Below are positions 11,827 to 49,797 of a stretch of DNA of 50,025 bases, piece after piece; position 1 is the first letter of the stretch; every line of letters begins with the position of its first letter. The DNA is from Candidatus Competibacteraceae bacterium. Its GTDB lineage: Bacteria; Pseudomonadota; Gammaproteobacteria; Competibacterales; JAHEDQ01. Position numbers and translations under genes: made by a program. The stretch spans positions 1 through 50,025 of the forward strand of contig JAHEDQ010000006.1 of NCBI GenBank assembly GCA_024641125.1. Direction: 5' to 3'. A model generated the notes under the pieces. The model was not told the origin of the DNA. It did no database searches and saw only the letters and a program-made list of their open reading frames with translations.

Positions 11827-13536
11827 TCAGAACAGGAAGTAGCGCTGAGCCAGCGCCAACTCCACCGCTGGCTCGCAGGTGAGCAGCTCACCGTCGGCGC
11901 GTACCTCGTAGGTTTCCGGATCCACCTCCATGCGCGGCTGATAGTCATTCAGACGCATGGTGGCCTTGGTCACTGTTCGGGTACCGTACACCGCCACCAG
12001 TTGTTTGCTGAGTCCCAGCCGCTGATCGATGCCGGCCTCCAGGGCCGCCTTGGACACGAAGGTCACGGAACTGGCTGTCAGGGCCAGTCCAAGGGCGCCG
12101 AACATGGGGCGATAGTGGACGGGTTGCGGGGTTGGAATCGATGCGTTCGGGTCCCCCATGGCCGCAGCGGCGATGCTCCCACATTTCAACACCAGATCCG
12201 GTTTAACTCCGAAGAACATGGGCTTCCACACCACCAGATCGGCCAGCTTGCCCACTTCGATGGAACCCACCGAGTCGGCGATGCCGTGGGTCAGTGCCGG
12301 GTTGATCGTGTACTTGGCAATGTAGCGCTTGATCCGCAAATTATCGTGTTGGGCGCTGTCTCCCCGCAGCGGTCCACGTTGTTTTTTCATTTTGTCGGCG
12401 GTCTGCCAGGTCCGCACGATGACCTCGCCGACCCGGCCCATGGCCTGGGAGTCAGAGGCGATCATAGAGAACGCGCCCAAATCGTGCAGGATGTCCTCGG
12501 CGGCGATGGTCTCCCGACGGATCCGGCTCTCGGCGAAGGCCACATCCTCCGGAATACGCGGATCCAGGTGGTGGCAGACCATCAGCATGTCCAGATGCTC
12601 GTCAACAGTGTTGATGGTGTAGGGCCGGGTCGGGTTGGTGGAGGAGGGCAACACGTTCGGCTCGCCACAAACTTTGATGATGTCCGGCGCATGCCCGCCA
12701 CCAGCGCCTTCGGTGTGGAAGGCGTGGATGGTACGCCCCTGGAACGCGGCCACTGTGTTCTCGACAAAGCCGGACTCGTTCAGCGTGTCGGTGTGAATAG
12801 CGACCTGCACGTCCATGTCCTCGGCCACCCCCAGACAGGTGTCGATGGCCGCCGGCGTGGTGCCCCAGTCCTCGTGCAGTTTAAGTCCACAGGCGCCGGC
12901 GGCGACCTGTTCAATCAATGCGTCGGGTCGTGAGGCATTGCCCTTGCCGAAAAACCCCAGATTCATAGGCAACCCCTCTGCCGCCTGTAACATGCGTGCC
13001 AGATGCCAGGGACCGGGGGTGCAGGTGGTGGCGTTGGTGCCGTCGGCCGGCCCAGTGCCGCCACCCAGCATTGTGGTGATGCCACTGTACAGGGCGTCCT
13101 CGACCAGCTGCGGGCAGATCCAGTGAATGTGGGCGTCGATGCCACCGGCGGTGACGATACGGCCTTCGCCGGCGATGGCTTCGGTTCCGGGACCCACCAC
13201 GATGTCGACGCCGGGTTGGATGTCGGGATTACCGGCCTTGCCGATGCCTGCGATGATGCCGTCGCGAATGCCGATATCGGCTTTTACGATGCCCCAATAG
13301 TCGACGATCAAGGCGTTGGTGATCACCGTGTCCACCGCGCCCTCGGCCCGGCTGGTCTGGGATTGCCCCATGCCATCACGGATGACCTTGCCGCCACCGA
13401 ACTTGATCTCCTCACCGTAGACGGTGTGGTCGGCCTCCACTTGCAGGAACAAATCCGTGTCGGCCAGGCGAACGCGATCGCCTACCGTGGGCCCGAACAT
13501 GGCCGCGTACTCGGCCCGGGGTATGCTATAGGCCAT
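11827..13536 (-). CDS. ureC: urease subunit alpha (catalytic)
   Basis: The 569-residue catalytic subunit that hydrolyses urea to ammonia and carbamate at a di-nickel centre. Visible landmarks are [13 protein letters not shown] (HxH nickel ligands, about residue 135), [10 protein letters not shown] with the carbamylated lysine (about 217), the AIHTDTLNE histidine (about 247), [10 protein letters not shown] (about 278) and the mobile-flap [13 protein letters not shown] with its catalytic histidine (about 320). All key residues look intact. It follows ureB by 3 bp. Confidence 0.98.
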
Positions 13537-36390: not shown

Positions 36391-36631
36391 CCGGTTTGGA
36401 TGGTGATGCAGAAGACGCAGGGGTGGTTCTCGCGATCGCTGGCAGGCGCCAATTCCGGGGAGTGCAACGCGGTCAACGCGGCTTGTGAGCTGGCCCAGAG
36501 GGCGCCCCGCTGATGACCCCATGTTGCGTTGCACCCCTTGGAAAAGGCCTGCCATCGCCTGCGGTGTGCGCCCTACCTTGGTTCATCAGCGGCGCTCTGT
36601 GAATAACCGGACTGCCCGCATGGCCCGCTAG

Positions 36632-36792
36632 GGAGCCTCTTATTTATTCTGGACAAAGCAGATTGGAGGGTGAAATGTGCAGCTTCGAGGCGCAGATCGC
36701 GGGTAATAGTCATTAATATTGCCAAGATTGGCAACGATGACGCTGTGCATTTCAGTCCCAACATGCACGTTCACGAATAAATCAGAGGCTCC
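36632..36792 (+). mobile_element. 161-bp MITE-like repeat, copy A
   Basis: Ends are GGAGCCTCT...AGAGGCTCC, and the inverted match continues imperfectly inward (TTATTTATTC against GAATAAATC) for about 22 bases. The 4-bp flanks are CTAG on the left and CCAG on the right, a one-base-different direct repeat. Inside is a perfect TTGCCAA-GA-TTGGCAA hairpin (36719-36734). Copy B at 49622 has the same length and orientation and roughly three-quarters identity by eye. It is too short to encode a transposase, so non-autonomous. The TIR and YTAR-like target recall IS5-group elements, but that link is inference. Confidence 0.75.
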
Positions 36793-36804
36793 CCAGGGCA
36801 CCGG

Positions 36805-38643
36805 ATGACGATTGATCCTGCGCTGACGCTTGCACTGATCGGGCTGCTTGGCATCGGCGCGCAGTGGCTTTCCTGGTGGCTCAAGCTGCCTTCCATCGTG
36901 CTGCTGTTGCTGATCGGAGTGTTTGCCGGCCCGGTGACGGGATGGTTGGACCCGGATGCCCTGCTGGGCGATCTGTTGTTTCCCCTGGTTTCCCTGGGGG
37001 TTGCCATCATCCTGTTCGAGGGCAGCCTCACCCTCAAGCTGCAGGAGATCCGCGGTCACGGGCAGGTGGTGACCCGTTTGGTAACGGTCGGGGCTCTGGT
37101 GAGCTGGCTGGTGATCGGCATCAGCGCCTGGTGGCTGCTGGATCTGTCCTGGCAACTCAGCCTGTTGTTCGGAGCCTTGGTGTCGGTCACCGGCCCCACG
37201 GTGATCATGCCGCTGTTACGCACGGTCCGGCCGAAATCCGAGCTGGCCAACATCCTGCGCTGGGAGGGGATTATCATCGATCCTCTGGGCGCTTTACTGG
37301 CGGTCCTGGTTTTCGAGTTCATCGTGTCCGGAGAGCGCGGCCACACGGCATTGGTGTTTGCCCAGGTGGTTCTGGTGGGCGGAGGGGCCGGTGTCGTCGG
37401 CGCCCTGCTGCTGGCGTTTGTTCTGCGTCGGCATCTAATGCCGGACTACCTGCACAACGTCGCCACGCTGGTACTGGTACTGGCGGTGTTCGCCGGCGCA
37501 AATGCCCTTGCCCATGAGTCGGGGCTGCTGGCGGTCACGGTCATGGGCATGCTTCTGGCCAATCTGCGGGACATCCCCATGGACGATATCCTGCATTTCA
37601 AGGAGAGCCTGACCGTGCTATTGATCTCGGGCATGTTCATCCTGCTGGCGGCCCGGGTGGATCTAAACGCACTTTGGGCATTGGGGCTTGGTGGGATCCT
37701 GTTGCTGGCAGTGGTGCTGTTCGTGGCCCGGCCGCTGACGGTCTGGGTATCGACTCTGGCCACCCCACTCGACTGGCCCGGACGGACATTGCTGGCCTGG
37801 GTCGCCCCCAGAGGCATCGTCGCGGCGGCGGTGTCGGCGTTGTTCGCCCTGCGACTGGAACAACTCGGCTACCCGCAGGCCGATCTGCTGGTTTCTCTGA
37901 CCTTTGCGGTGATCGTCGGCACCGTGGTTTTGCAAAGCCTGACCGCGGGACCGCTGGCGGACTGGCTGGGCGTATCGGAACCAGAGCCCCACGGCGTGCT
38001 GATTGTCGGCGCCGGCAGAGCGGCCCGCACCATCGGCCTGGCGATCGCCGGCCGGGACTACCGGGTACGGGTCACCGACACCAGTTGGGACAACATCAGC
38101 GCCGCTCGTATGGAGGGACTCGACACCTATTTTGGCGCTGCCGTATCCGAACACGCCGATCGGCACCTGGATTTGATTGGGCTTGGCCAGATGTTCGCCA
38201 TGTCGCGCCCCTCGGCCCTCAACGCCTTGGCCTGCATCCGATTCCGCCCCGAGTTCGGCGCCAAATCCGTGTTCAGTATTGGCGCCGAAACCGGCAAACC
38301 TGATGGCGGCAAATCCCAACTGACCCAGCGGCACCAATGCCCCCGGCTGTTCGGGAAGAGTATCACTCTGTCCAAGCTCGAAAGCCTGCTCAGCCAGGGG
38401 CACGAAGTGCGCGGCACACCGCTCACCGACGCTTTTGGCGCGACCGACCTCGAACGGCACTATGGGAAGCGCGCACTGGCGTTATTTGCCCTGGATCCGA
38501 GGGATCGTCTGTGGGTGTACAGCGATCAGTCCACCTTCGAAGCCGGTCCAGGCTGGACCGTGTTCAGCCTGGTTCCGCCGCCGGAGCCGGAATCACCCGA
38601 TGCGGAGGAAACGGTCGATCGGACGCCGGCACCGCAAGCATAA
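36805..38643 (+). CDS. NhaP-type cation:proton antiporter with C-terminal nucleotide-binding domain
   Basis: 612 residues. Twelve or so membrane helices (CPA1 family; SVTGPTVIMPLLRTVRP and LAHESGLLAVTVMGMLLAN are typical) are followed near residue 395 by a Rossmann domain (GVLIVGAGRAARTIGLAIAG), and then by a region with no recognised fold. It exchanges Na+ or K+ for H+ across the inner membrane; the nucleotide domain, TrkA-N-like, probably regulates it. The ATG lies 12 bp from the end of MITE-like copy A, so its leader or ribosome site (AGGG-CACCGG) is formed at the element's border. Monocistronic. Confidence 0.9.
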   Translation: MTIDPALTLALIGLLGIGAQWLSWWLKLPSIVLLLLIGVFAGPVTGWLDPDALLGDLLFPLVSLGVAIILFEGSLTLKLQEIRGHGQVVTRLVTVGALVSWLVIGISAWWLLDLSWQLSLLFGALVSVTGPTVIMPLLRTVRPKSELANILRWEGIIIDPLGALLAVLVFEFIVSGERGHTALVFAQVVLVGGGAGVVGALLLAFVLRRHLMPDYLHNVATLVLVLAVFAGANALAHESGLLAVTVMGMLLANLRDIPMDDILHFKESLTVLLISGMFILLAARVDLNALWALGLGGILLLAVVLFVARPLTVWVSTLATPLDWPGRTLLAWVAPRGIVAAAVSALFALRLEQLGYPQADLLVSLTFAVIVGTVVLQSLTAGPLADWLGVSEPEPHGVLIVGAGRAARTIGLAIAGRDYRVRVTDTSWDNISAARMEGLDTYFGAAVSEHADRHLDLIGLGQMFAMSRPSALNALACIRFRPEFGAKSVFSIGAETGKPDGGKSQLTQRHQCPRLFGKSITLSKLESLLSQGHEVRGTPLTDAFGATDLERHYGKRALALFALDPRDRLWVYSDQSTFEAGPGWTVFSLVPPPEPESPDAEETVDRTPAPQA

Positions 38644-38843
38644 GCCATCGATCCAGGGCAGGACTCTCAAACACGGCGTTGGCGGAGGAACCGATGCAAA
38701 GGGAGCCTGTTCGATGGCGTCAGAATACCTAAAGAGCCTTTTTCTTCTGGGCGAAGTAGATCGACGCCAAAATGGCTGTGCTGCAGACCGTTCCCTTTCT
38801 ACCGCGCCGACTCCGAGACAGATCGAGGTTCGCCGGCATGTGC

Positions 38844-40163
38844 TCAGGTGATCAACTCGGCAACCAGTGCATCGCCGGCGGCCGATAGCCCCGTGAGCCG
38901 GGCCCTGCCAATCTGGCCGGCAAGGCCAGGGTCAGCCCGAGGCGGCAACAGAACGCGAAAATAGGCCGGCGTGTACCCGGCATGATACCAGCTGTCCCCA
39001 TTGCGGGTGCCGTGTTCCCACAGAATCGGCTCGCACCTGCCGACCCGATCTGCCAGCGCCTGGCCTTTCATGCGTTTACCCAGGCGGTGCAGTTCCCGGC
39101 TGCGATGCTGCTGGAGGCTTCGCGAAACCGGATCAGGAAGGCCGGCGGCCTTGGTGCCGGCCCGGGGTGAGTAGGAAAATACGTGCAGGTGCCCGAAGCC
39201 GACCCGCTCGACGAACTCCAGGGTGTCGGTCCACTCGGATTCTGTCTCACCCGGGAAACCCACAATGATGTCGGTGGTGACGTTAAAGCCCGGCACACAC
39301 TCCCGCAGGCGTTCCACCAACCGGGCATAGGCTTCGGTTTTGCAACGCCGGGCCATGCGTTTGAGCACCGTGTCCGACCCGCTTTGCAGCGGCAGATGCA
39401 TATGCGGCATCAGACGGGAGTCTTGGAACAGGTCGAGGAATTCCTCCCCCAGATCCCACGGTTCAACCGAAGCGAAGCGAATACGCGGCATGTCGGTGTC
39501 GCTCAGCAGGGCCCGAACCAACTCGGACAGCGAACCGCCGATGTCGCTGCCGTAGCCACCGACATGCACACCGGTCAGTACCGCCTCACGCACCCCCTGG
39601 GCATGGAGGGCGTTGATCTCGGACACCACCTCCGCCACAGGTCGACTGTGTTCCGCGCCCCGCGCCACGGTCACGATACAAAAAGTACAGCGATAACGGC
39701 ACCCGTCCTGGATTTTCACGAAAGCCCGGCCCCGGCCCAGGGTGAGCAGCGTGGAGGCGCCCGGCTCCGTAGCCAGGGCAGGCATCCCCGGAAGTCCTAG
39801 CTCGCGCGTGGCGATTTCCACCAGTCTGGACTTTTCCTGGTTAGCCACCACCAGATCGACGCCGTGTTCAGCGGCCGCCGCGCCGGACTCCAGGGTGGCG
39901 TAACAGCCCGTGACCACGAGACGCGCCTGGGGATTGGCCCGGTGCACCCGCCGCATGATCTGACGGGATTTCCGAACCGCCTCCAACGTCACCGCACAGG
40001 TGTTCAAGACCACCAGATCGGCATCGGTCGCAGCTTCGGCCAGCTGATGGCCCTGTTGTTCAAATTGCCGGGCCCAGGTCTGCAATTCCGCCTCGTTGAG
40101 CCGGCAGCCCAGGGAGCGTAGATGAACACGTAGCGGCGCTACTGCCTGGTGATTCTGTACCAT
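38844..40163 (-). CDS. mtaB: tRNA methylthiotransferase MtaB
   Basis: A 439-residue radical-SAM enzyme that adds the 2-methylthio group to t6A37 in tRNAs reading ANN codons. The N-terminal UPF0004 domain has HLRSLGCRLNEAE, VLNTCAVT and VVTGCYAT (three cysteines for one cluster). The radical-SAM motif is GCRYRCTFCIV, followed by RFASVEPWDL, LPLQSGSDTVLKRM and a TRAM-like tail. HLRSLGCRLNEAE and CRYRCTFC are the MtaB rather than MiaB pattern. ATG 40163 is chosen over the frame to 40448, which would overlap the methyltransferase gene. Confidence 0.93.
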   Translation of the reverse strand: MVQNHQAVAPLRVHLRSLGCRLNEAELQTWARQFEQQGHQLAEAATDADLVVLNTCAVTLEAVRKSRQIMRRVHRANPQARLVVTGCYATLESGAAAAEHGVDLVVANQEKSRLVEIATRELGLPGMPALATEPGASTLLTLGRGRAFVKIQDGCRYRCTFCIVTVARGAEHSRPVAEVVSEINALHAQGVREAVLTGVHVGGYGSDIGGSLSELVRALLSDTDMPRIRFASVEPWDLGEEFLDLFQDSRLMPHMHLPLQSGSDTVLKRMARRCKTEAYARLVERLRECVPGFNVTTDIIVGFPGETESEWTDTLEFVERVGFGHLHVFSYSPRAGTKAAGLPDPVSRSLQQHRSRELHRLGKRMKGQALADRVGRCEPILWEHGTRNGDSWYHAGYTPAYFRVLLPPRADPGLAGQIGRARLTGLSAAGDALVAELIT

Positions 40164-40233
40164 TGAATGCTGCCCCTGGGGCGCGGGCGGGGCGCCGTCG
40201 TCGGAACCAATACGGGTGCCGCGTGCCAGTGTC

Positions 40234-41253
40234 TCAGGCCTTGTCGAAAACGTAATGGTTGACCTGCCACTCCCGCCCCTGGTCATACCCGAAAAGCTCC
40301 GCGCAGGCCATGAAAAACACCCGCCATCGCTGCACCCAGCGCTCGGCATCCTCTCCATAGGTCTGCCGGAACAGCGCCAGGATCGGATCGCGCTGATGGT
40401 CCATCTGTGACAGCCAGGCTTCGCAGGTCCGTTGATAGTGGCTGCCATCCACAGTCCACCGGTTGTTCAAACGCAGATCATCCTGGAAGTGGGTGAGCAA
40501 CGCCTCGCTGGGCATCAGGCCTCCACTGAAAAAATGCCGGCCCATCCAGTTGTCATCGCCCTCGGTCTCGAACGGATAACTGTAGTGGCGGTGGGTGAAT
40601 ATATGCACGAACAGCCGGCCGTCCGGCCGCAGCCATGCGCCGATGCGGGCCATGAGGGCCTGATAGTTGCGCATGTGTTCGAACATCTCCACCGACACGA
40701 CGCAATCAAAGCGCTGGTCGGTGGAAAATTCATTGACGTCGGCCACCTGGGCATTGATGTTGCCCAGCTCACGGGCCTCGGCCCGGCGCTGAATGGTTTC
40801 GATCTGCGGTGCCGAATTGCTCAGGGCAACGATGCGGCTGTTGGGATAATGCGCTGCCATCCACAGAGTCAGGGACCCCCAACCGCAGCCAAGTTCCAGA
40901 ATATCCATGCCGTCGACCAGCCCGGCCCGCTCGCAGGTCAGCGCCAACATCGCTTCCTCAGATTGAGCCAGGTTGTTGACACCTGAAGGCCAGTAACCCG
41001 AGCTGTATTTCAGATGAGGGCCGAGTACGCGCTGGAAAAACTCGGGCGGCACCTCGTAGTGCTGCTCGTTCGCCTTGTCGGTTTCGATGGCGATGGGGCT
41101 GTTACGCAACTCGTTCACAAGTTCGGCCTGCCGCAATTCCGGGTCGCCGCTTGCCTGCTCCCGAAGCCGGTCACGCAGCAGCTTGCGGATGCCCGCCCGG
41201 GTGACCCAGTCGGGCATGAGGCCCCGTTCAATCAACTCAACAGCCGTTCTCAT
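40234..41253 (-). CDS. cyclopropane-synthase-like SAM methyltransferase (second copy)
   Basis: A 339-residue class I methyltransferase of the Cfa group, but without the long N-terminal lipid-binding domain of the classic enzyme. HYEVPPEFFQRVLGPHLKYSSGYW replaces the usual HYD...MTYS opening. The SAM site is ILELGCGWGSLTLWMA, followed by VSVEMFEHMRNYQALM and FVHIFTHRHYSYPFE. ATG 41253 overlaps the DUF1295 stop (ATGA), so the two are translationally coupled and probably act together. Likely substrate: an unsaturated acyl chain of a phospholipid, not proved. Confidence 0.85.
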   Translation of the reverse strand: MRTAVELIERGLMPDWVTRAGIRKLLRDRLREQASGDPELRQAELVNELRNSPIAIETDKANEQHYEVPPEFFQRVLGPHLKYSSGYWPSGVNNLAQSEEAMLALTCERAGLVDGMDILELGCGWGSLTLWMAAHYPNSRIVALSNSAPQIETIQRRAEARELGNINAQVADVNEFSTDQRFDCVVSVEMFEHMRNYQALMARIGAWLRPDGRLFVHIFTHRHYSYPFETEGDDNWMGRHFFSGGLMPSEALLTHFQDDLRLNNRWTVDGSHYQRTCEAWLSQMDHQRDPILALFRQTYGEDAERWVQRWRVFFMACAELFGYDQGREWQVNHYVFDKA

Positions 41254-42032
41254 GGGCGCGTCTCCGTGGGGAACCAAGGGAAAAACATGGAAGTACTGCG
41301 CTGGTACGCGGCGTAGTCTTCACCCCGGCTGGCCAGCGCACGGCGCTCTGTGTGGGGAATGCCGGTGAGGTAGTAGAGCACCAGAAACATCATCACCGGA
41401 CCCAGCAGCCCGAGCCAGCCTAGGGGTCCGCCCAAGGTCAGGGGGACATAGGCCCACCAGTGCAGCCACTCAAAGAAGTAGTTGGGATGACGCGAGTAGC
41501 GCCACAGGCCGCTGCGGCAGGTCTTACCGAGGTTTTCCGGGCGAGCCCGAAAGTCGGCCAGTTGCCGGTCCGCCAGCGTCTCACCGCCCACCGCCACCAA
41601 CCAGATGACAACCGCCAGGACACTGGCCCAGACTGGTCCCGCCTCTGGACGCTGCACCGCTGCCGCCCAAGGCAGGGCGAGCGCGACCGCAGCCACCGCC
41701 TGAAATTGAAAAAACGCAAAAAAACCCAACTGTGCCCGTTCACCCAGCCAGGCGCGCATGTCCACGTAGCGCCCATCTTCTTCGGAGCCACCGACACGTC
41801 GCCACAAATAGAACCCAAGCCGCAGCCCCCAGGCCGCGCCGAGGATGCCGATCAGAACACGCTGGCCGGGGTCTCCGTCGCCCAGCACGGCGAACAGAAC
41901 TGCCAATGCAGCCATGCCGAAGGACCAGCCCACATCCACCCAGCCGGCGTTGCCGCTGCGCCACTGCCAAAGCCACACGAGCGTCATCAGGACCGCAAGC
42001 ATCACGAGACCGGATACCATCAACTCGGCCAT
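41250..42032 (-). CDS. DUF1295 membrane protein, steroid-5-alpha-reductase-like
   Basis: A 260-residue polytopic protein with about six helices. The C-terminal NADPH-binding pattern of the ICMT/5-alpha-reductase group is LWRYSRHPNYFFEWLHWWAYV, with LGKTCRSG before it and HTERRALASRGEDYAAYQRSTS at the end. The family includes enoyl reductases, so reduction of a lipid double bond is a reasonable idea. ATG 42032 has GAGG eight bases upstream. It follows DUF2878 by 82 bp and overlaps the second methyltransferase. Confidence 0.85.
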   Translation of the reverse strand: MAELMVSGLVMLAVLMTLVWLWQWRSGNAGWVDVGWSFGMAALAVLFAVLGDGDPGQRVLIGILGAAWGLRLGFYLWRRVGGSEEDGRYVDMRAWLGERAQLGFFAFFQFQAVAAVALALPWAAAVQRPEAGPVWASVLAVVIWLVAVGGETLADRQLADFRARPENLGKTCRSGLWRYSRHPNYFFEWLHWWAYVPLTLGGPLGWLGLLGPVMMFLVLYYLTGIPHTERRALASRGEDYAAYQRSTSMFFPWFPTETRP

Positions 42033-42114
42033 GCGTGCGCCTCTATGCACCGCCCGCCGGTTGCCGTCACACGCACCGCGGCAAGCCCCGACCGACTAAG
42101 GAATGCGCCGGCGC

Positions 42115-42663
42115 TCATGCGGCGACCCGTCCACCGGCACGGGGCATCGCCCAGGCACTGAAGAAGGTGAGCGCCAGCATTGCTCCGCCCCAGACCAGTG
42201 ACAAGGCGGCAATCGCGGCGCCTTTCGGGGCCAAAAACTCCGCGGCGCCCAAGGCGGCGCCGCCGGCATAGGCCAGAGGACCACCCACCACACCCATAAG
42301 TACGGCCCAGATCGGGTGCGATTGTATCCAGGACATGGACCGGGTAAGGGTGACGCCGAAAACCAGCCACAGGGCACTGATCCAAAGCGGCGCCCAGGGT
42401 TGGGGCCAGACGGCTCCCTGGAAATGGATCAATCCGGCGCTGACCAGCACAGAGTCCAGCGCGGTTCCCATCAACACGATTCCGATCAGCATACGTGCCT
42501 CGCGGCCCCAATTCGGATTGCGCCACAAATAAAAGAGCGCGATCGCGCTGGAGACCACGGGGCCCAGCCAGGCCAAACCATGGGCGGCACCCAGGACGCA
42601 GCAAAACCAACCGAGTTGAAACAGGGCCACGTTGAGCAGGGTGGCGGGGAGAGACGCAACCAT
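42115..42663 (-). CDS. DUF2878-family membrane protein
   Basis: A 182-residue protein with five or six hydrophobic helices starting NVALFQLGWFCCVLGAAHGLAWLG, containing WRNPNWGREARMLIGIVLMGTALDSVLV near 47 and WAPLWISALWLVFGVTLTRSM near 90. I assign it to DUF2878 on these patterns and its usual place after a Cfa gene. The function is unknown. It starts 5 bp after the cyclopropane-synthase stop. Confidence 0.8.
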   Translation of the reverse strand: MVASLPATLLNVALFQLGWFCCVLGAAHGLAWLGPVVSSAIALFYLWRNPNWGREARMLIGIVLMGTALDSVLVSAGLIHFQGAVWPQPWAPLWISALWLVFGVTLTRSMSWIQSHPIWAVLMGVVGGPLAYAGGAALGAAEFLAPKGAAIAALSLVWGGAMLALTFFSAWAMPRAGGRVAA

Positions 42664-42668
42664 GGCGG

Positions 42669-43934
42669 TCAGGGCCGGCTCGACCGGTAATCGGCTTTTT
42701 CAAAAACCACCTGAACTGTGCCGATCGCACGCTCCTGAAACCCACCTTCGCAGTAGCTGAGATAGAAATTCCAGAGTCGTGCGAAGCGATCACCGAAACC
42801 AAGCTGACGCACTGCCTGCAGACGGTCATTGAAGCGCTGGCGCCAATGTCTGAGCGTAGTGGCGTAGTGCAGCCCGATGTCCTCCAGATGCTGGACTCGA
42901 AGGTCGGATGCCTGCCCTACGGCACGCATCATGGCCGAAACCGACGGCAGACATCCGCCGGGAAAAACATAGCGCTGTATAAAGTCCACTTCCCGCTTGG
43001 CGCGTTCGAACTCGGACTCGGCGATGGTGATGGACTGCAACAGCATCAGACCGTCCGATTTCAGAAGACGGCTGCAGGTCTCGAAATAGGTATCGAAGTA
43101 CTGATGCCCAACCGCCTCGAACATTTCGATGGATACGAGCTTGTCGTATTGGCCTTGCAGATCCCGGTAGTCCTGACACAGCACGGTGACGCGGTCCTCA
43201 AAACCTGCTTCGCTGACCCGCGTCCGGGTGAAATCGTACTGCTCCCGGGAAATTGTCGTGGTGGTGACATGGCAACCGCAGTGCGCGGCCGCATGCAGTG
43301 CAAAACCTCCCCAACCGCCCCCCACTTCCAGTACCCGGTCGTCGGGTGACAGGGCCAGCTTGTCGCAAATCCGCTGGTATTTCGCGTGCTGAGCGGTCTG
43401 CAGGCTGGTGTCGACCTGTTCGAATATGCCGCAGGAGTAGGTCATGCTGTCGTCCAGCCACAATCGGTAGAAGGCGTTGCCCAGATCATAGTGGGCCGCG
43501 ATGTTCTCCTCGCTGCCACGGCGGGTATTGCGTCGCAGTGCATGAAACAGCTTGAGCATGGGCGTGGTCAGACGGCTCAGCCCTCCCTCCAGGGATTCCA
43601 TGACCGAGCGATTGAGCACCAGCAGGCGCACGACTGCGGTAAGGTCATCGCAGTCCCACCAGCCCAACATGTATGCTTCGCCAGCCCCCACGGTGCCGCG
43701 CAAAGCGATCCGGCTGTAGACCCGCGCATCATAGATGTAGACCCGGGCCGTTGGGTCCGCTTCGCTGCCAACCGCCCCGAAATCGTGCTCGCCGTCCGCA
43801 TCGTGTATCGCCAACCGGCCCCGAGTCATGTCACGCAGACGACGGAACACGAGCCTGCGCAGATAGCGATCGGCCGGTCGGGCCGGTGCTCCAATCTCCG
43901 CCGGTACCTCAGCCGGAACGATGGATACTCTCAT
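42669..43934 (-). CDS. cfa: cyclopropane-fatty-acyl-phospholipid synthase
   Basis: 421 residues, full length for Cfa. The N-terminal lipid-binding domain (about 1-120, with GEAYMLGWWDCDDLTAVVRLL) is followed by HYDLGNAFYRLWLDDSMTYSCGIF near 146, the SAM site VLEVGGGWGGFALHAA near 195, SIEMFEAVGHQYFDTYF near 262 and VFPGGCLPS near 318. The reaction is transfer of a methylene from SAM to a cis double bond of membrane lipid, or a related methylation. ATG 43934 lies inside the DUF1365 gene (26-bp overlap) with GGAAGGG just upstream. Confidence 0.92.
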   Translation of the reverse strand: MRVSIVPAEVPAEIGAPARPADRYLRRLVFRRLRDMTRGRLAIHDADGEHDFGAVGSEADPTARVYIYDARVYSRIALRGTVGAGEAYMLGWWDCDDLTAVVRLLVLNRSVMESLEGGLSRLTTPMLKLFHALRRNTRRGSEENIAAHYDLGNAFYRLWLDDSMTYSCGIFEQVDTSLQTAQHAKYQRICDKLALSPDDRVLEVGGGWGGFALHAAAHCGCHVTTTTISREQYDFTRTRVSEAGFEDRVTVLCQDYRDLQGQYDKLVSIEMFEAVGHQYFDTYFETCSRLLKSDGLMLLQSITIAESEFERAKREVDFIQRYVFPGGCLPSVSAMMRAVGQASDLRVQHLEDIGLHYATTLRHWRQRFNDRLQAVRQLGFGDRFARLWNFYLSYCEGGFQERAIGTVQVVFEKADYRSSRP

Positions 43935-44709
43935 GTCCCTTCCTCATGTTCGTCGATCGGTGTTTAGGATGGTCGATGACCGGAAGCCGCTTCAGCCAGA
44001 GCTTCGTGGCCTCCCAGTGGATAGCCAGAATGACTTTCAGAGTCATAAATGGATGAATCAGCAGGGCACGGGCAAGTGCGGCCCCGGTAATGGCTTCACG
44101 ATCCAGCAGCAAGGTGGCGTCGAACAGCCTGCCGCGGTCATCGTGGTTGGCCATGTGTACCATGAGATCCTCCGCCGGCGCGGTGGATCGCCATTCATAG
44201 TTCATGTCCATCTCCATAAAGGGCGACACATGGAACGCCTTGGCGAAGCGATGCCGCTGGTGTTCTGGCTGTGCGCCGGCATTCTCCGACGCATCCAACA
44301 CGTAGCAGTGACGCTCGCCCCAAGGGGTGTTGGTGACCTCGGCCACCAGGGTTTCCACCTGCTTATCCGCGTCATCGAAGCAGTAGTAAATGCTGATCGG
44401 GTTGAAGCAGTAGCCGAAGTGCCGGAGATGAGTCAGCAGGCGAATGGGGCCTGTCGGACGGCGCCCGGTGCGCGTACTCACCAACTCGCGCACCGCCGTA
44501 TCCAGAGGAATTTTGGGGTCGCCGAAGTGATCCCCACGACGAAACCAGGCAATGGCGAAGCGGCGGCAGGACCAGAACCAGCGCCCGGCGAAAACCCGAT
44601 CCAACTCGCTGAGATCGATATAGGCCATAAACAGGCGATATCGGAACTCGTGGTCTACGGGACGCACCCGTCGATGTCGAACCCAACCACGGTACAGGGC
44701 GCTGTTCAC
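43909..44709 (-). CDS. DUF1365-family protein
   Basis: A 266-residue protein opening NSALYRGWVRHRRVRPVDHEFRY, with IRLLTHLRHFGYCFNPISIYYCFD near 90, EVTNTPWGERHCYVL near 122, FHVSPFMEMDMNYEW near 158 and a hydrophobic C-terminal helix. All are diagnostic of DUF1365, a family nearly always found between a flavin oxidoreductase and a Cfa gene. In Rhodobacter-type clusters it belongs to the singlet-oxygen (RpoE-ChrR) response. GTG 44709 overlaps the oxidoreductase stop (GTGA). Confidence 0.9.
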   Translation of the reverse strand: MNSALYRGWVRHRRVRPVDHEFRYRLFMAYIDLSELDRVFAGRWFWSCRRFAIAWFRRGDHFGDPKIPLDTAVRELVSTRTGRRPTGPIRLLTHLRHFGYCFNPISIYYCFDDADKQVETLVAEVTNTPWGERHCYVLDASENAGAQPEHQRHRFAKAFHVSPFMEMDMNYEWRSTAPAEDLMVHMANHDDRGRLFDATLLLDREAITGAALARALLIHPFMTLKVILAIHWEATKLWLKRLPVIDHPKHRSTNMRKGHESIHRSG

Positions 44710-45959
44710 GCGGCAAGATCCCGTTCATCCATCAGCGCGTCACCGACGATCCGCCCACTTTGAAAGCCATCTTCGTGAAAACCGTAGGTCCAGTAGGCGC
44801 CGCAGTACCAACTGCGATTGACACCGCTGATCTCTTCCCTGCGCTCGCGCGCCCGAGCCGCTTCCGGGGTATACAGGGGGTGAGCGTAGTCGATCCGCTG
44901 AATGACACGATCGGGGTCGATTTCACCCTGATAGTTCAGGGTGACGAAGAACGTCTCCGGCGCATCGAGACATTGCAGACTGTTCATGTCGTAGGTCACC
45001 GCCACCCGGCTTTGCGGTTCGGGCGGCACGTGATAGTTCCACGCAGCCCAGGCCAGGCGTCGGCGCGGCATCAGGCGGGGATCGGTGTGGAGAACCGCCT
45101 CGTTGTTCTGGAACGGAAGCGCACCCAGAACTTCCCGTTCGGCAGCGCTGGGATCCTCCAACAGGGCCAGGGCCTGATCGCTGTGGCAGGCAAGAACAAC
45201 CTGGTCGAACGCCGCATTTTCCTGATCGGTGGTCACCAGCACACGGTCCGGCCTGCGAACGACGCGCCGCACCGGCATCGCCAGACGGATACGATCCCGA
45301 AAGGGCGCGGCCAGGGCTTCGACGTACTCACGAGATCCCCCGACGACGCTGCGCCACTGGGGACGATCGTTCACGGTCAGGAGACCGTGATTGCGAAAGA
45401 ATTCAATAAAACCCAAAGCGGGGAACTGTTCGATTCTGTCCGGGCAAGCCGACCAGATGGCCGCGCCCATGGGCAGCAGATAGCGATTTCGGAACAACGC
45501 GCCGTAGCGCCCCTGCTCCAAAACCTCCCCGAGCGTGGTGGCAGAATCCAGTTCGCCCATAAGCCGGGGCGCCTCCCGGTTAAAGCGCAGAATGTCCCGC
45601 AACATTCCGTAGAACTGAGGTCGAACCAGGTTGCGCCGTTGCGCGAACAAGGTATTCAGGGTATCCCCGTTGTACTCCAAACCGGATTGCTCGCACCGAA
45701 CGCTGAAGGTCATGGCCGTGTCTTGCGAGGCAACTCCCAGATCTCGCAGCAGGGCGCTGAACCCCGGATAGTTGCGGTCATTGAAAACGATGAATCCGGT
45801 ATCTATCGCATAACTCTTGCCCGCCAGCGGGACATCAATCGTGTTCACGTGGCCGCCGAGGTGGCCACCCGCTTCGAACAGGGTGATGTCGTGACGTTGG
45901 TGGAGCCGATGTGCGACCGTCAGCCCCGAGATGCCACCACCAATGATCGCAATCCTCAT
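44706..45959 (-). CDS. FAD-dependent amine-oxidase-like oxidoreductase
   Basis: 417 residues. The N-terminal dinucleotide fold is IAIIGGGISGLTVAHRLHQ followed by LFEAGGHLGGHVNTID (GG-doublet of the amine oxidase/phytoene desaturase group). The C-terminal end includes GVNRSWYCGAYWTYGFHEDGFQSG, which closes the FAD site. Homologues accompany DUF1365 and Cfa, and probably act on a fatty-acyl chain. ATG 45959 is weakly preceded by a ribosome site; an open frame that ends in an ATGA overlap with it is discussed as a finding. Confidence 0.88.
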   Translation of the reverse strand: MRIAIIGGGISGLTVAHRLHQRHDITLFEAGGHLGGHVNTIDVPLAGKSYAIDTGFIVFNDRNYPGFSALLRDLGVASQDTAMTFSVRCEQSGLEYNGDTLNTLFAQRRNLVRPQFYGMLRDILRFNREAPRLMGELDSATTLGEVLEQGRYGALFRNRYLLPMGAAIWSACPDRIEQFPALGFIEFFRNHGLLTVNDRPQWRSVVGGSREYVEALAAPFRDRIRLAMPVRRVVRRPDRVLVTTDQENAAFDQVVLACHSDQALALLEDPSAAEREVLGALPFQNNEAVLHTDPRLMPRRRLAWAAWNYHVPPEPQSRVAVTYDMNSLQCLDAPETFFVTLNYQGEIDPDRVIQRIDYAHPLYTPEAARARERREEISGVNRSWYCGAYWTYGFHEDGFQSGRIVGDALMDERDLAA

Positions 45960-46109
45960 GCCGACGTCCGACTCGTGACCAGCCTCGGCAATCCCCAGCG
46001 CCGTTCCAGCGGAGCGGCGTCTCTTCTAATGAGTGCCTGAGTCTCCAGCGCGCATGTGCGAACGCCAAGCCAGCCCTCCCGGGCAGCCACGAACTTGATA
46101 GACAGGACA

Positions 46110-46526
46110 CTACAGCCGCGCCTTGATCCGGCGAATGATGGCTCCAAGCACCGGCACCCGCTCGTAGATGAACTCGCCCATATCGAAGTAGTCCCGGTGC
46201 CGGTGGACGCGATCGGCGAAGTGAATGTGAGACAGCCCGCTGAGGGTGATCTCCTGGCCCCGGCGGAAAGTCCCGTGCCGGACATGCATGACCCAGGGAA
46301 TGACCGCCTGGGTCGCGTCCTCCATGCCCGGTTGATATTCGAAACGGCAGCTGAGTACGTCCTGATACAAATTTGCATAGTAGTCACGGAGGACATTAAG
46401 GCCGCATATTTCACGTACGGGATCCTGGAAGTGCACGTCATCGGCATAAATTTCCGACAAGCGATCGAGACAATCGGCGTCGAGCTCATTAAATGTGGCT
46501 TTAAATTTTTCAACAAATGGATACAT
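46110..46526 (-). CDS. NTF2/SnoaL-like small protein
   Basis: A 138-residue protein with the cone-shaped NTF2 fold pattern: FVEKFKATFNELDADCLDRLSEIYADDVHFQDPVREICG at the start and an HIHFADRVHRHRDYFDMGEFIYERVPVLG end. Such proteins bind small hydrophobic ligands or have weak catalytic roles. In related lipid clusters one precedes the oxidoreductase gene, often with an SDR between; no SDR is present here and 150 bp separate the two genes. Likely the first gene of the operon; the 140 bp upstream show no clear promoter consensus. Confidence 0.8.
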   Translation of the reverse strand: MYPFVEKFKATFNELDADCLDRLSEIYADDVHFQDPVREICGLNVLRDYYANLYQDVLSCRFEYQPGMEDATQAVIPWVMHVRHGTFRRGQEITLSGLSHIHFADRVHRHRDYFDMGEFIYERVPVLGAIIRRIKARL

Positions 46527-46666
46527 GGTTCAACGTGAATGTGGCGTGAAGAAGCGCGGAGCTTGTCGAGCCTGCAGCAGGTGGCAGATTGACATATTCA
46601 CTGCGCCGGCTTCAAAGCGGATCGCTGATCGAGCTCTGGTCCGTCGGCAGACGCGAATACATGGTT

Positions 46667-47713
46667 TCAGCAATCGGCACAGGCCGGTGCCGCCAGTTCG
46701 ATGCGCTCGCCGGCACGAAAAACGGTTAACCGAACGGGATCGGACGGTGACTTGTCGCCCATGCGTTTCCGGATCGCAAGATAGGCTTGGCGACCTGCTA
46801 TGGGAATGCCCTCCACCTCCAGGATGACATCTCCGCCCAGAAGCAGGCTGTCGCCGTCGATCGTGATTTCGATACTGCCCTCCCTGAGACCCAATCGCTC
46901 GGACATGGACCCACGGGCCACCCGCTGCACCAGAATGCCCGCACTCTGGGGAAGATTAAGGGCCTCGGCAAGCGGCCCCCGAATATACCTGCCTTCCAGA
47001 CCGGACCAACGCCGTTCCTGGGCCAGCAGCTGGTCCCGCACGGTATTCGACGCCACCGCAAAGCCCAGCCCTTCGTTGCCACCCGAGGTAGATTCGATAT
47101 GGCTGACAATACCGATCAGCTGGCCGTCAAGATTGAACAAAGGCCCACCAGAGTTACCCTGATTGATGGCGGCATCGGTCTGCAGATATTCACCCAGGCC
47201 AAATCCACCATCCAGGGAGTCCGCTGGGCGGCGGGCGCTGATGTGGCCCACTGTCAGCGTGTGTGAGATACCGTAGGGCGCGCCCACCACAAACACCTCC
47301 TCGCCCACGCGAACGGTATCGGAGTCGGCCAGAACGACGGGGTTGATCCCTTCGGGCACATTGCTGAGTTGAATCAAGGCAACATCCGCCATGGGCTCCG
47401 AGGCGATCACCCGGGCCAGTGCCTGGTCGCCGTTAACAAACTGCACGTGTATCGAATCCGCGGTCTGCACCAGGTGTGAAGCGGTCAACGCCTGGCCGTC
47501 GTCGGAGATCAAAACCCCGGATCCCAGACCCGCGGCGCGACTGGGTCGATCAGGATCACTGCCGGGCCGGTGTTTGTAGGCCTCGATGATCAGCACCGCC
47601 GGTTCAACCCGGTCAAAGGCATCACTCAAATCCGTGGCCAAGGCGAAGCATGGGCAGCAAATGACCGCGGGTGCAATCGCCAGTCGGGCGACGAGTTCGG
47701 TGACGCGGTTCAT
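46667..47713 (-). CDS. trypsin-like serine protease with one PDZ domain (HtrA/Deg family)
   Basis: 348 residues. A signal or anchor segment (LAIAPAVICCPCFALA) is followed by the protease domain with TASHLVQTAD (His), MADVALIQL (Asp) and INQGNSGGPLF (Ser), all intact. A single PDZ domain starts near AGILVQRVARGSMSERLGLREG. The layout is like DegS, but a cleavable signal cannot be excluded. It would act on misfolded or signal proteins in the periplasm. ATG 47713 overlaps the kinase stop by four bases (ATGA); the frame to 47851 is inside that gene. Confidence 0.9.
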   Translation of the reverse strand: MNRVTELVARLAIAPAVICCPCFALATDLSDAFDRVEPAVLIIEAYKHRPGSDPDRPSRAAGLGSGVLISDDGQALTASHLVQTADSIHVQFVNGDQALARVIASEPMADVALIQLSNVPEGINPVVLADSDTVRVGEEVFVVGAPYGISHTLTVGHISARRPADSLDGGFGLGEYLQTDAAINQGNSGGPLFNLDGQLIGIVSHIESTSGGNEGLGFAVASNTVRDQLLAQERRWSGLEGRYIRGPLAEALNLPQSAGILVQRVARGSMSERLGLREGSIEITIDGDSLLLGGDVILEVEGIPIAGRQAYLAIRKRMGDKSPSDPVRLTVFRAGERIELAAPACADC

Positions 47714-48609
47714 GAGATCTCCGAAAGCAGCCGATCGAGCATCGACTCCGCCTGGGACAGGTAGCCGGCCCCGAACAGATTCAAATGATTCAGGATGTGA
47801 TAGAGATTGTACAGCGTGCGCCTCAGTGGATAGCCCTCGTCCAGCGGCCAAGCCGCCTGATATGCCGCGTAAAATTCCCGGCTCAGCCCACCGAACAGTT
47901 CAGTCATGGCAAGATCCGCTTCGCGGTCGCCATAGTAACTGGCCGGATCATAAATGACCGGACGGCCCTGGGCGTCATAGCCGATGTTGCCGGACCAGAG
48001 GTCACCGTGGAGCAAAGACGGCACAGGACGATGCCCACCGAGCAAATCGGGCAGCGCATCCTGCAACCGCGCGCCCCGATCAGCGAGACGCGCCGCGAAT
48101 CCGCGGGATGCCGCCAGCTCAAGCTGAAAACCCAGACGATGCTCTGACCAGAACGCGACCCAATCCCGGGAAAACGCGTTGGGCTGCGGGGTGGTCCCCA
48201 GCATATTGTCCCGCACCCAACCGAATTGGTCGCCCGTGGCGCGGTGCAGGGACACCAGCTCGCCGCCGAAACGGGCCTCAGAATCCCGTCGCGGCGGCCC
48301 GAGCGCGATATACTCCAGGACCAACCAGGCGTGTTGACCCTCGCTGCCGGTGCAGACCGGTTTGGGCACCCGAACCGGACCGGCATCATATAGCGTAGCT
48401 AGGGCCGCCGCTTCGTTCATCAGCGCCGGCAAAAAGTCCGCTCGGTTGACCTTCACGAAGAAGGCGTCGTGACCGTCAGACAATCGATAGGCTTCGCTTA
48501 TGCAGCCACCGCTCAGAGGCTGGGGCCGATCCGGGTCGAAGGCCGTACCGGTCTCACCACGGATCTGGTCTATCAGAGGAATCCAGTCGATCAAAGAAGG
48601 TGTGGTCAA
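47710..48609 (-). CDS. fructosamine-kinase-family protein
   Basis: 299 residues with the aminoglycoside/fructosamine kinase fold: PLSGGCISEAYRL glycine loop, AFFVKVNRADFLPALMNEAAAL, WLVLEYIALG hinge, and the catalytic LLHGDLWSGNIGYDAQGRPVIYDPASYYGDREADLAMTELFGG. Members phosphorylate sugar-modified amines on proteins to remove glycation. The start codon is TTG at 48609 with no good ribosome site; no better in-frame start was found nearby. Its stop overlaps the start of the serine protease gene. Confidence 0.9.
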   Translation of the reverse strand: MTTPSLIDWIPLIDQIRGETGTAFDPDRPQPLSGGCISEAYRLSDGHDAFFVKVNRADFLPALMNEAAALATLYDAGPVRVPKPVCTGSEGQHAWLVLEYIALGPPRRDSEARFGGELVSLHRATGDQFGWVRDNMLGTTPQPNAFSRDWVAFWSEHRLGFQLELAASRGFAARLADRGARLQDALPDLLGGHRPVPSLLHGDLWSGNIGYDAQGRPVIYDPASYYGDREADLAMTELFGGLSREFYAAYQAAWPLDEGYPLRRTLYNLYHILNHLNLFGAGYLSQAESMLDRLLSEIS

Positions 48610-48690
48610 GTGATACCAATCGCGTTTCAGTCCTCAACGGCCCAGATGCGAGGTGCCGGGGCTCGCCCCGAGGTATACGCCCGGGTGGGG

Positions 48691-49299
48691 TCAGCCGCCC
48701 GATCTTGCCCAGTTGAGTCGCTCATGGATCGGACTTCGACGCGGGAAATGTGCCTTCAGAAATGCCATCTGATCGGCCAGAATACGGCGTCCCTGCAGGT
48801 AAATGTACTCGGCGTAACTGGGCGTAAACGGAACCGCCATCAGTTCCATGCCCATCTCGTCAGGGTAGGACGCGCCCTTATGGTGATTGCAGCGGCGGCA
48901 GGCGCTGACCACGTTGGTCCAGACATCCTTGCCGCCGCGGCTGATGGGCCGGATGTGATCGCGGGACAGGCCGCCATCGGAAAACTGACCGCCACAGTAA
49001 AGGCACAGGCCGCAATCCCGCCGGAACAAGGCAGGGTTGTTCAGCGGCGGCACATAGTCAATCAAGCGCTCGGATAACGCCCGTGTGTCTCCCTCCGTGG
49101 CGATGATTGAATTTACATCAACGAAGCTGCGCAATCCGCTGCGGGCATTGGTCCCACCCCGAATGCGATACAGACGCGAGCCGCAAGCGTAAGACACCAT
49201 CCCCTGGCTGTACAGCCGGACGGCTTCTCGAAAATCGATCCATTCCAGCGGCATTCCCGACACATCGGTGCGCAGAATCCGGTGATCTAAGGCGTGCAT
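48691..49299 (-). CDS. HNH endonuclease-family protein
   Basis: A 202-residue protein with an N-terminal region (LDHRILRTDVSGMPLEWIDFREAV) and an HNH domain: CLYCGGQFSDGGLSRDHIRPISRGG, TNVVSACRRCNHHKGAS. The C-terminus carries RRILADQMAFLKAHF. This architecture is common and usually chromosomal; the substrate is unknown. GGGGAGA six bases before ATG 49299 fixes the start; the upstream open frame to 49566 has no protein-like composition. A MITE-like repeat lies further upstream. Confidence 0.85.
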   Translation of the reverse strand: MHALDHRILRTDVSGMPLEWIDFREAVRLYSQGMVSYACGSRLYRIRGGTNARSGLRSFVDVNSIIATEGDTRALSERLIDYVPPLNNPALFRRDCGLCLYCGGQFSDGGLSRDHIRPISRGGKDVWTNVVSACRRCNHHKGASYPDEMGMELMAVPFTPSYAEYIYLQGRRILADQMAFLKAHFPRRSPIHERLNWARSGG

Positions 49300-49621
49300 C
49301 AATTCTCCCCAGGCATCAAGTTGATGGACCTGTGCGTAAGCGACTATACACCAAGGGCGCTCGGCCGAAGGCTTCGTCGGGAAGCCCAGATGGCTGGCCG
49401 CAAAATCGATTCGGTCATCCCGTTCACGTACCGGAGTTGTGACCGTACCTTGACAGAGAAATTCGCATGAGGCGCAATAAGGTCGGGTTTCCCGATGTGG
49501 TTGCCGGGATCTTTTTTTATCCATATCCATAAGAATGTCTGCGGTTCTGTGCCGACAGCCTTGCACTTTCGGCCTTTGGGACCGAGACGCGATTTGCGTC
49601 GATCGTTCAGACTCACCCTGG
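49300..49621. other. 322-bp non-coding region upstream of the HNH gene
   Basis: The minus frame of the HNH gene stays open to 49566, but the upstream codons look random. This part should hold the HNH promoter. No repeat or RNA gene was recognised here before copy B begins. Confidence 0.4.
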
Positions 49622-49782
49622 CAAGCCTCTGCTTTATTCTGGTTGAAGCAGATTGTAGGGTGAACTGTGCAGCATGATGGCGCGGATCGCGGAGAAACGT
49701 CGTTCTATTGCCACGAGTTGCAACGACGAAACCGTGCATTTGAGTCCCAGGATGCATGCTCACGAGTAGATTCAGAGGCTCC
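49622..49782 (+). mobile_element. 161-bp MITE-like repeat, copy B
   Basis: Same length, orientation and internal order as copy A. Left end CAAGCCTCTGCTTTATTCTG, right end TAGATTCAGAGGCTCC, forming weaker inverted ends than copy A. The 4-bp flanks are CTGG (49618-49621) and CTAG (49783-49786). Shared inner blocks include GAAGCAGATTG-like, GTGCAGC, GTGCATTTsAGTCCCA and AGAGGCTCCC. Copies differ by scattered substitutions and two compensating one-base indels. It lies between the HNH gene and the terminal gene. Confidence 0.7.
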
Positions 49783-49797
49783 CTAGTTGAGCTGCAG

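Follow-up and report, generated by a model that had tools for sequence, protein, structure and literature searches.

What are two similar repeats doing in the intergenic gaps of a gammaproteobacterium, and why do they fold? The window analysed here is the whole stretch of 50,025 nucleotides at positions 1 to 50,025 of contig JAHEDQ010000006.1 (assembly GCA_024641125.1), from a Candidatus Competibacteraceae bacterium. A first-pass annotation had described two 161-bp repeats with terminal inverted repeats (TIRs) and CTAG-like flanks in it. On re-check, the lengths, coordinates, flanks and TIRs were all exact: positions 36632-36792 (copy 1) and 49622-49782 (copy 2) are two copies of one element, 161 bp each, flanked by CTAG/CCAG and CTGG/CTAG, respectively. 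They align over their full length, with 126 of 162 columns identical (blastn E = 3e-35). It is highly probable that both are copies of a miniature inverted-repeat transposable element (MITE) moved by an IS5-group transposase. More than 100 copies, target-site duplications, a nested insertion, an empty site and an insertion sequence (IS) with a matching TIR together carry the MITE reading and support an IS5-group mobiliser.

Copies, target sites and movement

The annotation had allowed for the case that only these two copies exist, and this case falls away. Merging DNA searches yielded at least 102 distinct sites in the source genome, each window copy used as query returned at least 40 full-length matches there, and a profile search of fetched stretches gave 106 sites. 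A covariance model of the element matched 118 of 118 scored candidates from this genome. With two mismatches or fewer allowed, the TIR was matched 84 + 87 times, and a reversed control pattern 0 + 0 times. The TIR measures 18 bp (GGAGCCTCTGATYTATTC) and the target duplication is a 4-bp YTAR. Modal length is 160 bp, exact in 51 of the 76 copies for which both ends were found. Shortened forms exist as well, for example of 54 and about 94 bp. At locus L071 of the source genome (1501-1554), a perfect 54-bp palindrome is built solely of the right-end sequence of the element; this is possibly an end-to-end product.

The borders of the element are sharp. Across 74 full-length copies, information per position amounts to at least about 1 bit at the terminal bases and about 0.5-0.9 bits in YTAR, and drops to about 0 beyond, such that conservation ends at GGAGCC/GGCTCC plus YTAR. 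A conserved part extending past the TIRs, which the annotation had considered as a sign of some other origin, is therefore not seen, information being at background just outside YTAR. Left and right flanks carry the same letter 176 times, as compared to 138 expected from shuffling, and none of 20000 shuffles reached the observed value; hence the YTAR flanks represent a target-site duplication.

None of the 78 assessable source-genome copies lies inside a predicted gene, according to a simple codon-usage caller that is approximate. Copies often occupy short gaps between co-directional genes, and their orientation relative to the genes displays no bias (++ 29, -- 23, +- 13, -+ 11). Many sit directly at a stop codon (e.g. 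L004, L008, L067 and L215). Since YTAR contains TAA or TAG, the duplication rebuilds the stop codon and the gene stays intact.

Evidence of movement is provided by another genus (g71; genomes G124, G435 and G260). G124 carries 7 copies that are about 99% identical, 6 of them with perfect target duplications (CTAA, CTAG, TTAG, TTAA). One G124 copy has inserted into the loop of an older one and duplicated CTAG there: GGTAATAGCTAG[159 bp]CTAGCTATTGCG. The joined flanks of the G124 copies were compared with DNA of sister species. Where G124 reads AACAATCAG[159 bp]CAAGTTTACTA, G435 reads AACAACTAGTTTACTA with a single CTAG, and two further G124 insertions are absent from G260, which lacks the 159 bp. 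An empty site keeping one CTAG, as the annotation had proposed to look for, was thus found in G435, and two more sites are empty in G260.

IS5-group elements as candidate mobilisers

The element is short (about 160 bp) and has no coding capacity for a transposase. The annotation had guessed at mobilisation by the IS5 group, for which YTAR is the target reported for IS5 (PMC10359306). This guess gains support from other carriers, which have IS5-family elements whose ends match, and from decayed IS5-type transposase pieces in the source genome itself. Genome G364, of the same genus as G124, holds a 1171-bp IS with an intact 324-aa IS5 transposase (NF033581, E = 3e-106), and the left TIR of this IS (GGAACCTCTGATTAATTC) equals the left TIR of the G124 MITE in 18 of 18 positions. 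TIR variants of MITE and IS therefore go together, and a transposase of the G364 type may move the MITE. Nitrococcus mobilis Nb-231 (L189-L208) has 11 IS5-group transposase copies; its elements measure 1176 bp, generate YTAR duplications and end in TIRs close to that of the MITE (GGAGACTCTGAACTATTC and GGAACGTCTGAACTATTC). In the carrier NORP163, an IS end reading CTAA|GGAAGCTCTGATTTATTC accompanies an IS5 transposase, with a TIR match of 16/18. One of the decayed pieces in the source genome retains a TIR (GGAAGGTCTGATTTATTC) matching at 15 of 18 positions. These broken pieces lie at contig ends (G000:C346, C256 and C47), as is expected of a repeated IS at which a draft assembly breaks.

Two other relations were considered. 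DDE_Tnp_1 transposases of the source genome showed no close TIR matches in their flanks. Nor did an origin of the MITE from one of the detected IS5 elements, through internal deletion, gain support; the common sequence is limited to the TIRs, and the MITE is hence not a simple internal deletion product of these IS.

A hairpin that folds better on one strand

The source consensus folds as one end-to-end hairpin (-91.4 kcal/mol, z = -13), and the inverted symmetry spans the entire element, beyond the 18-bp TIR. When 42 sequences drawn from many genomes are aligned, standard pairs fill 95.4% of the pair cells and two-sided changes are found at 31 of 59 pairs. Two-sided cells number 237 versus 75.5 in shuffled data (0/500), and the covariation score is 0.340; shuffling lowers it to 0.168 (0 of 500), and sliding to no more than 0.099. 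Sequence conservation also extends to an internal loop, in which AAGGCG faces CAACG.

The two strands are not equivalent. On average, the fold of the plus strand is about 21 kcal/mol more stable than that of the complement, and it is the more stable one in 41 of the 42 sequences. Opposed transitions, with the arms compared without folding, comprise 298 G-U and 147 A-C oppositions, and ten genome consensuses display 62 G-U and 31 A-C in their interior, nearly all the consensus A-C lying in loop columns 56, 57, 60, 69 and 70. Sequences from several genomes share ancestry, and these cells are not independent events. Changes that separate lineages run via G-U and hardly ever via A-C, which argues that one strand counts.

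Individual copies within a genome bear on where selection acts. Among 88 source-genome copies, changes at Watson-Crick pairs comprise 252 G-U and 230 A-C (P = 0.34), C-to-T and G-to-A counts reveal no bias able to create a G-U excess, and double changes number 47 versus 64 predicted by independence. These copies look like a finished star-shaped burst that is now decaying neutrally. For a second genome, G064, 38 copies were picked without structural information; they replace a set selected with the covariance model, whose count (142 G-U to 60 A-C) was biased by that model. The G064 copies display 87 G-U and 32 A-C, besides 46 double changes that restore pairing. In the subset present in only one or two copies, G-U and A-C stand at 31:29, whereas among the listed change types present in three or more copies 13 are G-U and 1 is A-C. 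With private changes even and shared changes biased to G-U, it would, most simply, be mainly copies with one strand foldable that leave descendants. This suggests that the ability of one strand to fold affects whether a copy is propagated, rather than serving the host at individual sites.

Based on this dataset, we hypothesize the following course of events. An IS5-group transposase encoded elsewhere would recognise the 18-bp ends of the element, which would be pasted into YTAR sites under duplication of those four bases, almost only between genes. To be propagated, a copy would need one particular strand to be foldable, as RNA or as single-stranded DNA. We give such a strand-specific requirement for propagation nearly even chances. 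The complete proposal, namely that a MITE moved by an IS5-group DDE transposase propagates in cis via the hairpin of one strand (RNA or single-stranded DNA), with the conserved loop being recognised and with class-wide selection among copies, is put forward tentatively, as somewhat less than an even bet.

Several observations weigh against parts of this picture. Changes common to several copies do not represent independent events, mutation recurring at a position may look like sharing, and frequent changes in the source genome show no clear bias between G-U and A-C. The empty sites come from another genus than that of the window. As to the mobiliser, an intact IS5-group transposase was not found in the source genome, and several many-copy carriers have no detected IS5-group transposase, noting that drafts may miss such genes. 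MITE and IS share nothing clear besides the TIR, subterminal sequence included. Finally, the right TIR of the G364 IS fits less well than its left one, and the two flanks of this IS differ at one base (CTAA/TTAA).

As an alternative, the hairpin may be a by-product of long palindromic DNA, in which template switching during replication corrects one arm by the other and thereby yields paired double changes in the absence of selection. The element is indeed near-palindromic, and several other MITEs sharing its TIR, such as those of 287 and 138 bp in Dyella, form nearly perfect palindromes that lack a consistent strand bias. However, such correction would yield perfect Watson-Crick pairs and treat both strands alike, yet G-U oppositions persist and A-C oppositions do not. 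The internal loop is moreover conserved in sequence, and double changes in the source genome fall below independence, as given above. We therefore regard this explanation as improbable.

A structured RNA useful to the host, such as a regulatory or processing signal that came to be repeated and that selection maintains at every site, would account for the RNA-like covariation, the strand bias, and the location of all assessable copies outside genes, often in short co-directional gaps. It would not account for the symmetry of private mutations between G-U and A-C, for the lack of orientation bias, or for the empty sites in sister genomes, which makes it very unlikely. Still less credence is given to a single-strand HUH transposase as the mover, as is RAYT for REPIN, with the likeness to IS5 TIRs being secondary: strand-specific hairpins are what HUH systems (IS200/IS605, REP/RAYT) recognise, but exact 4-bp YTAR duplications and an 18-bp TIR in common with DDE-type IS5 elements are not HUH features. 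Chance or local duplication of non-mobile DNA, for example of a promoter, could be argued from the divergence of the window copies (about 78% identity), but is refuted by a copy number above 100, by the exact ends and target duplications of these copies, and by the lack of any promoter- or terminator-like site in a search at copy 1.

Distribution, related systems and genomic context

The MITE is not confined to its source. At least 95 stretches of named genomes contain the exact TIR, almost all of them from Gammaproteobacteria; most paired exact TIRs bound elements of 157-162 bp, many are flanked by YTAR, and the interiors of such paired-TIR elements elsewhere display 66-81% identity to the window family. 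Plain blastn against relatives gave one marginal 51-bp match, in G053, where the covariance model recovered a diverged full-length copy. The model has matches in 25 of 25 chosen genomes; of 369 sampled genomes of Gammaproteobacteria, 95 have a match (E <= 1e-5), about 45 of these below 1e-15. Searches of viral contigs with the TIR and of plasmids with the element gave no match.

A second set of elements has an identical TIR and different palindromic interiors (Dyella, Nitrococcus and others). In Dyella, near-perfect palindromes of 274-287 bp (L094 183-469, L157 1929-2215, L181 1837-2110) end in GGAGCCTCTGATCTATTC, have unrelated interiors and reach folding energies of about -210 to -235 kcal/mol, neither strand being consistently favoured. 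A further high-copy hairpin subfamily, 159 bp long with ends GGGCACCCTCTATTAATT and TTAA flanks, is represented at L376 1100-1258 (G124) and found in many places in genus g71. This subfamily (TIR GGGCACC) has a loop motif as in the main family and folds at -85.6 versus -54.1 kcal/mol, a strand bias of -31.

By all defining features tested the element is a MITE, and by its ends and target it belongs to the IS5 group. It resembles the elements of this group (IS5 family, NF033581) in TIR type (18 bp) and in the 4-bp YTAR duplication, and differs from them in having no transposase gene; its interior shows no relation to that of the IS elements used for comparison. The nearest functional analogues are ERIC and Correia elements, the strand-specific hairpin linked to propagation being the unusual part. 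ERIC, also termed IRU, of enterobacteria and Vibrio are likewise short intergenic palindromic MITEs with a conserved hairpin, present in many genera of Gammaproteobacteria. ERIC measures about 127 bp and has a TA target and other termini. The present element differs by its YTAR target, IS5-type TIR and mostly environmental carriers, ERIC being set apart by its description. Correia elements of Neisseria are similar in size (roughly 100-200 bp), in copy number (more than 100) and in size variants generated by internal deletion, and they yield hairpin transcripts. Their termini and target are other than those of this MITE, and their host lineage is a different one. Correia elements can carry promoters (review PMC10969869), whereas the search at copy 1 gave none.

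Other MITEs of Gammaproteobacteria with hairpin potential are known from Coxiella burnetii (QMITEs, PMC5896051) and from Thiomargarita nelsonii (PMC4853749). The latter are described with 10-bp or TATAG direct repeats and not with YTAR, and QMITEs, for which a review gives direct repeats of 7-9 bp, are set apart by this description. REPIN mobilised by RAYT insert without target duplication, in contrast to the 4-bp duplications seen here. No earlier description of the sequence, of YTAR MITEs or of a class-wide palindromic repeat was found in the open-access papers searched. With covariance model matches in roughly one in four genomes sampled from the class, the family explains a frequent and apparently undescribed intergenic repeat. 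Bacterial MITEs are usually viewed as passive pairs of transposase binding sites. This family, present in many families of Gammaproteobacteria, offers hundreds of natural mutants, in which private and propagated changes reveal the features needed for copying, and the old question about the purpose of the bacterial MITE hairpin becomes directly testable.

In the window, copy 1 (36632..36792, plus strand) matches the 160-bp consensus at 149 of 161 columns. Its target-site duplication reads CTAG on the left (36628..36631) and CCAG, i.e. CTAG with one change, on the right (36793..36796). The 18-bp TIRs are GGAGCCTCTTATTTATTC on the left (36632..36649, plus strand) and GGAGCCTCTGATTTATTC on the right (36775..36792, minus strand). 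The internal loop of the hairpin consists of CGAGGCG (consensus CAAGGCG) on the 5' side (36686..36692) and GCAACG on the 3' side (36731..36736), both on the plus strand. The copy occupies an intergenic gap, and a Na+/H+ exchanger gene (PF00999, 36805-38643) starts just past it.

Copy 2 (49622..49782, plus strand) matches the consensus at 133 of 161 columns and is flanked by CTGG (49618..49621; CTAG with one change) and CTAG (49783..49786). Both of its TIRs are decayed: the left one (49622..49639, plus strand) reads CAAGCCTCTGCTTTATTC, and the right one (49765..49782), decayed via a one-base insertion, reads GGAGCCTCTGAATCTACT on the minus strand. The full left end of the element is GGAGCCTCT, that of copy 2 is CAAGCCTCT, the first two G's having been lost. 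The copy sits between an HNH endonuclease gene (PF01844, 48691-49566, minus strand) and the end of the window.

A 34-aa mini open reading frame of the consensus was rejected as a gene; no Pfam family matched, and the frame is shifted in copy 1. Searches with Rfam covariance models gave no match for copy 1 up to E = 5, and neither copy reached a gathering score. Elsewhere in the window, positions 13095-13384 (plus strand) match RF02514 (5' ureB small RNA) with 130 bits against a cut-off of 40, which probably reflects conservation of the ureB coding region and not the presence of the Helicobacter RNA.

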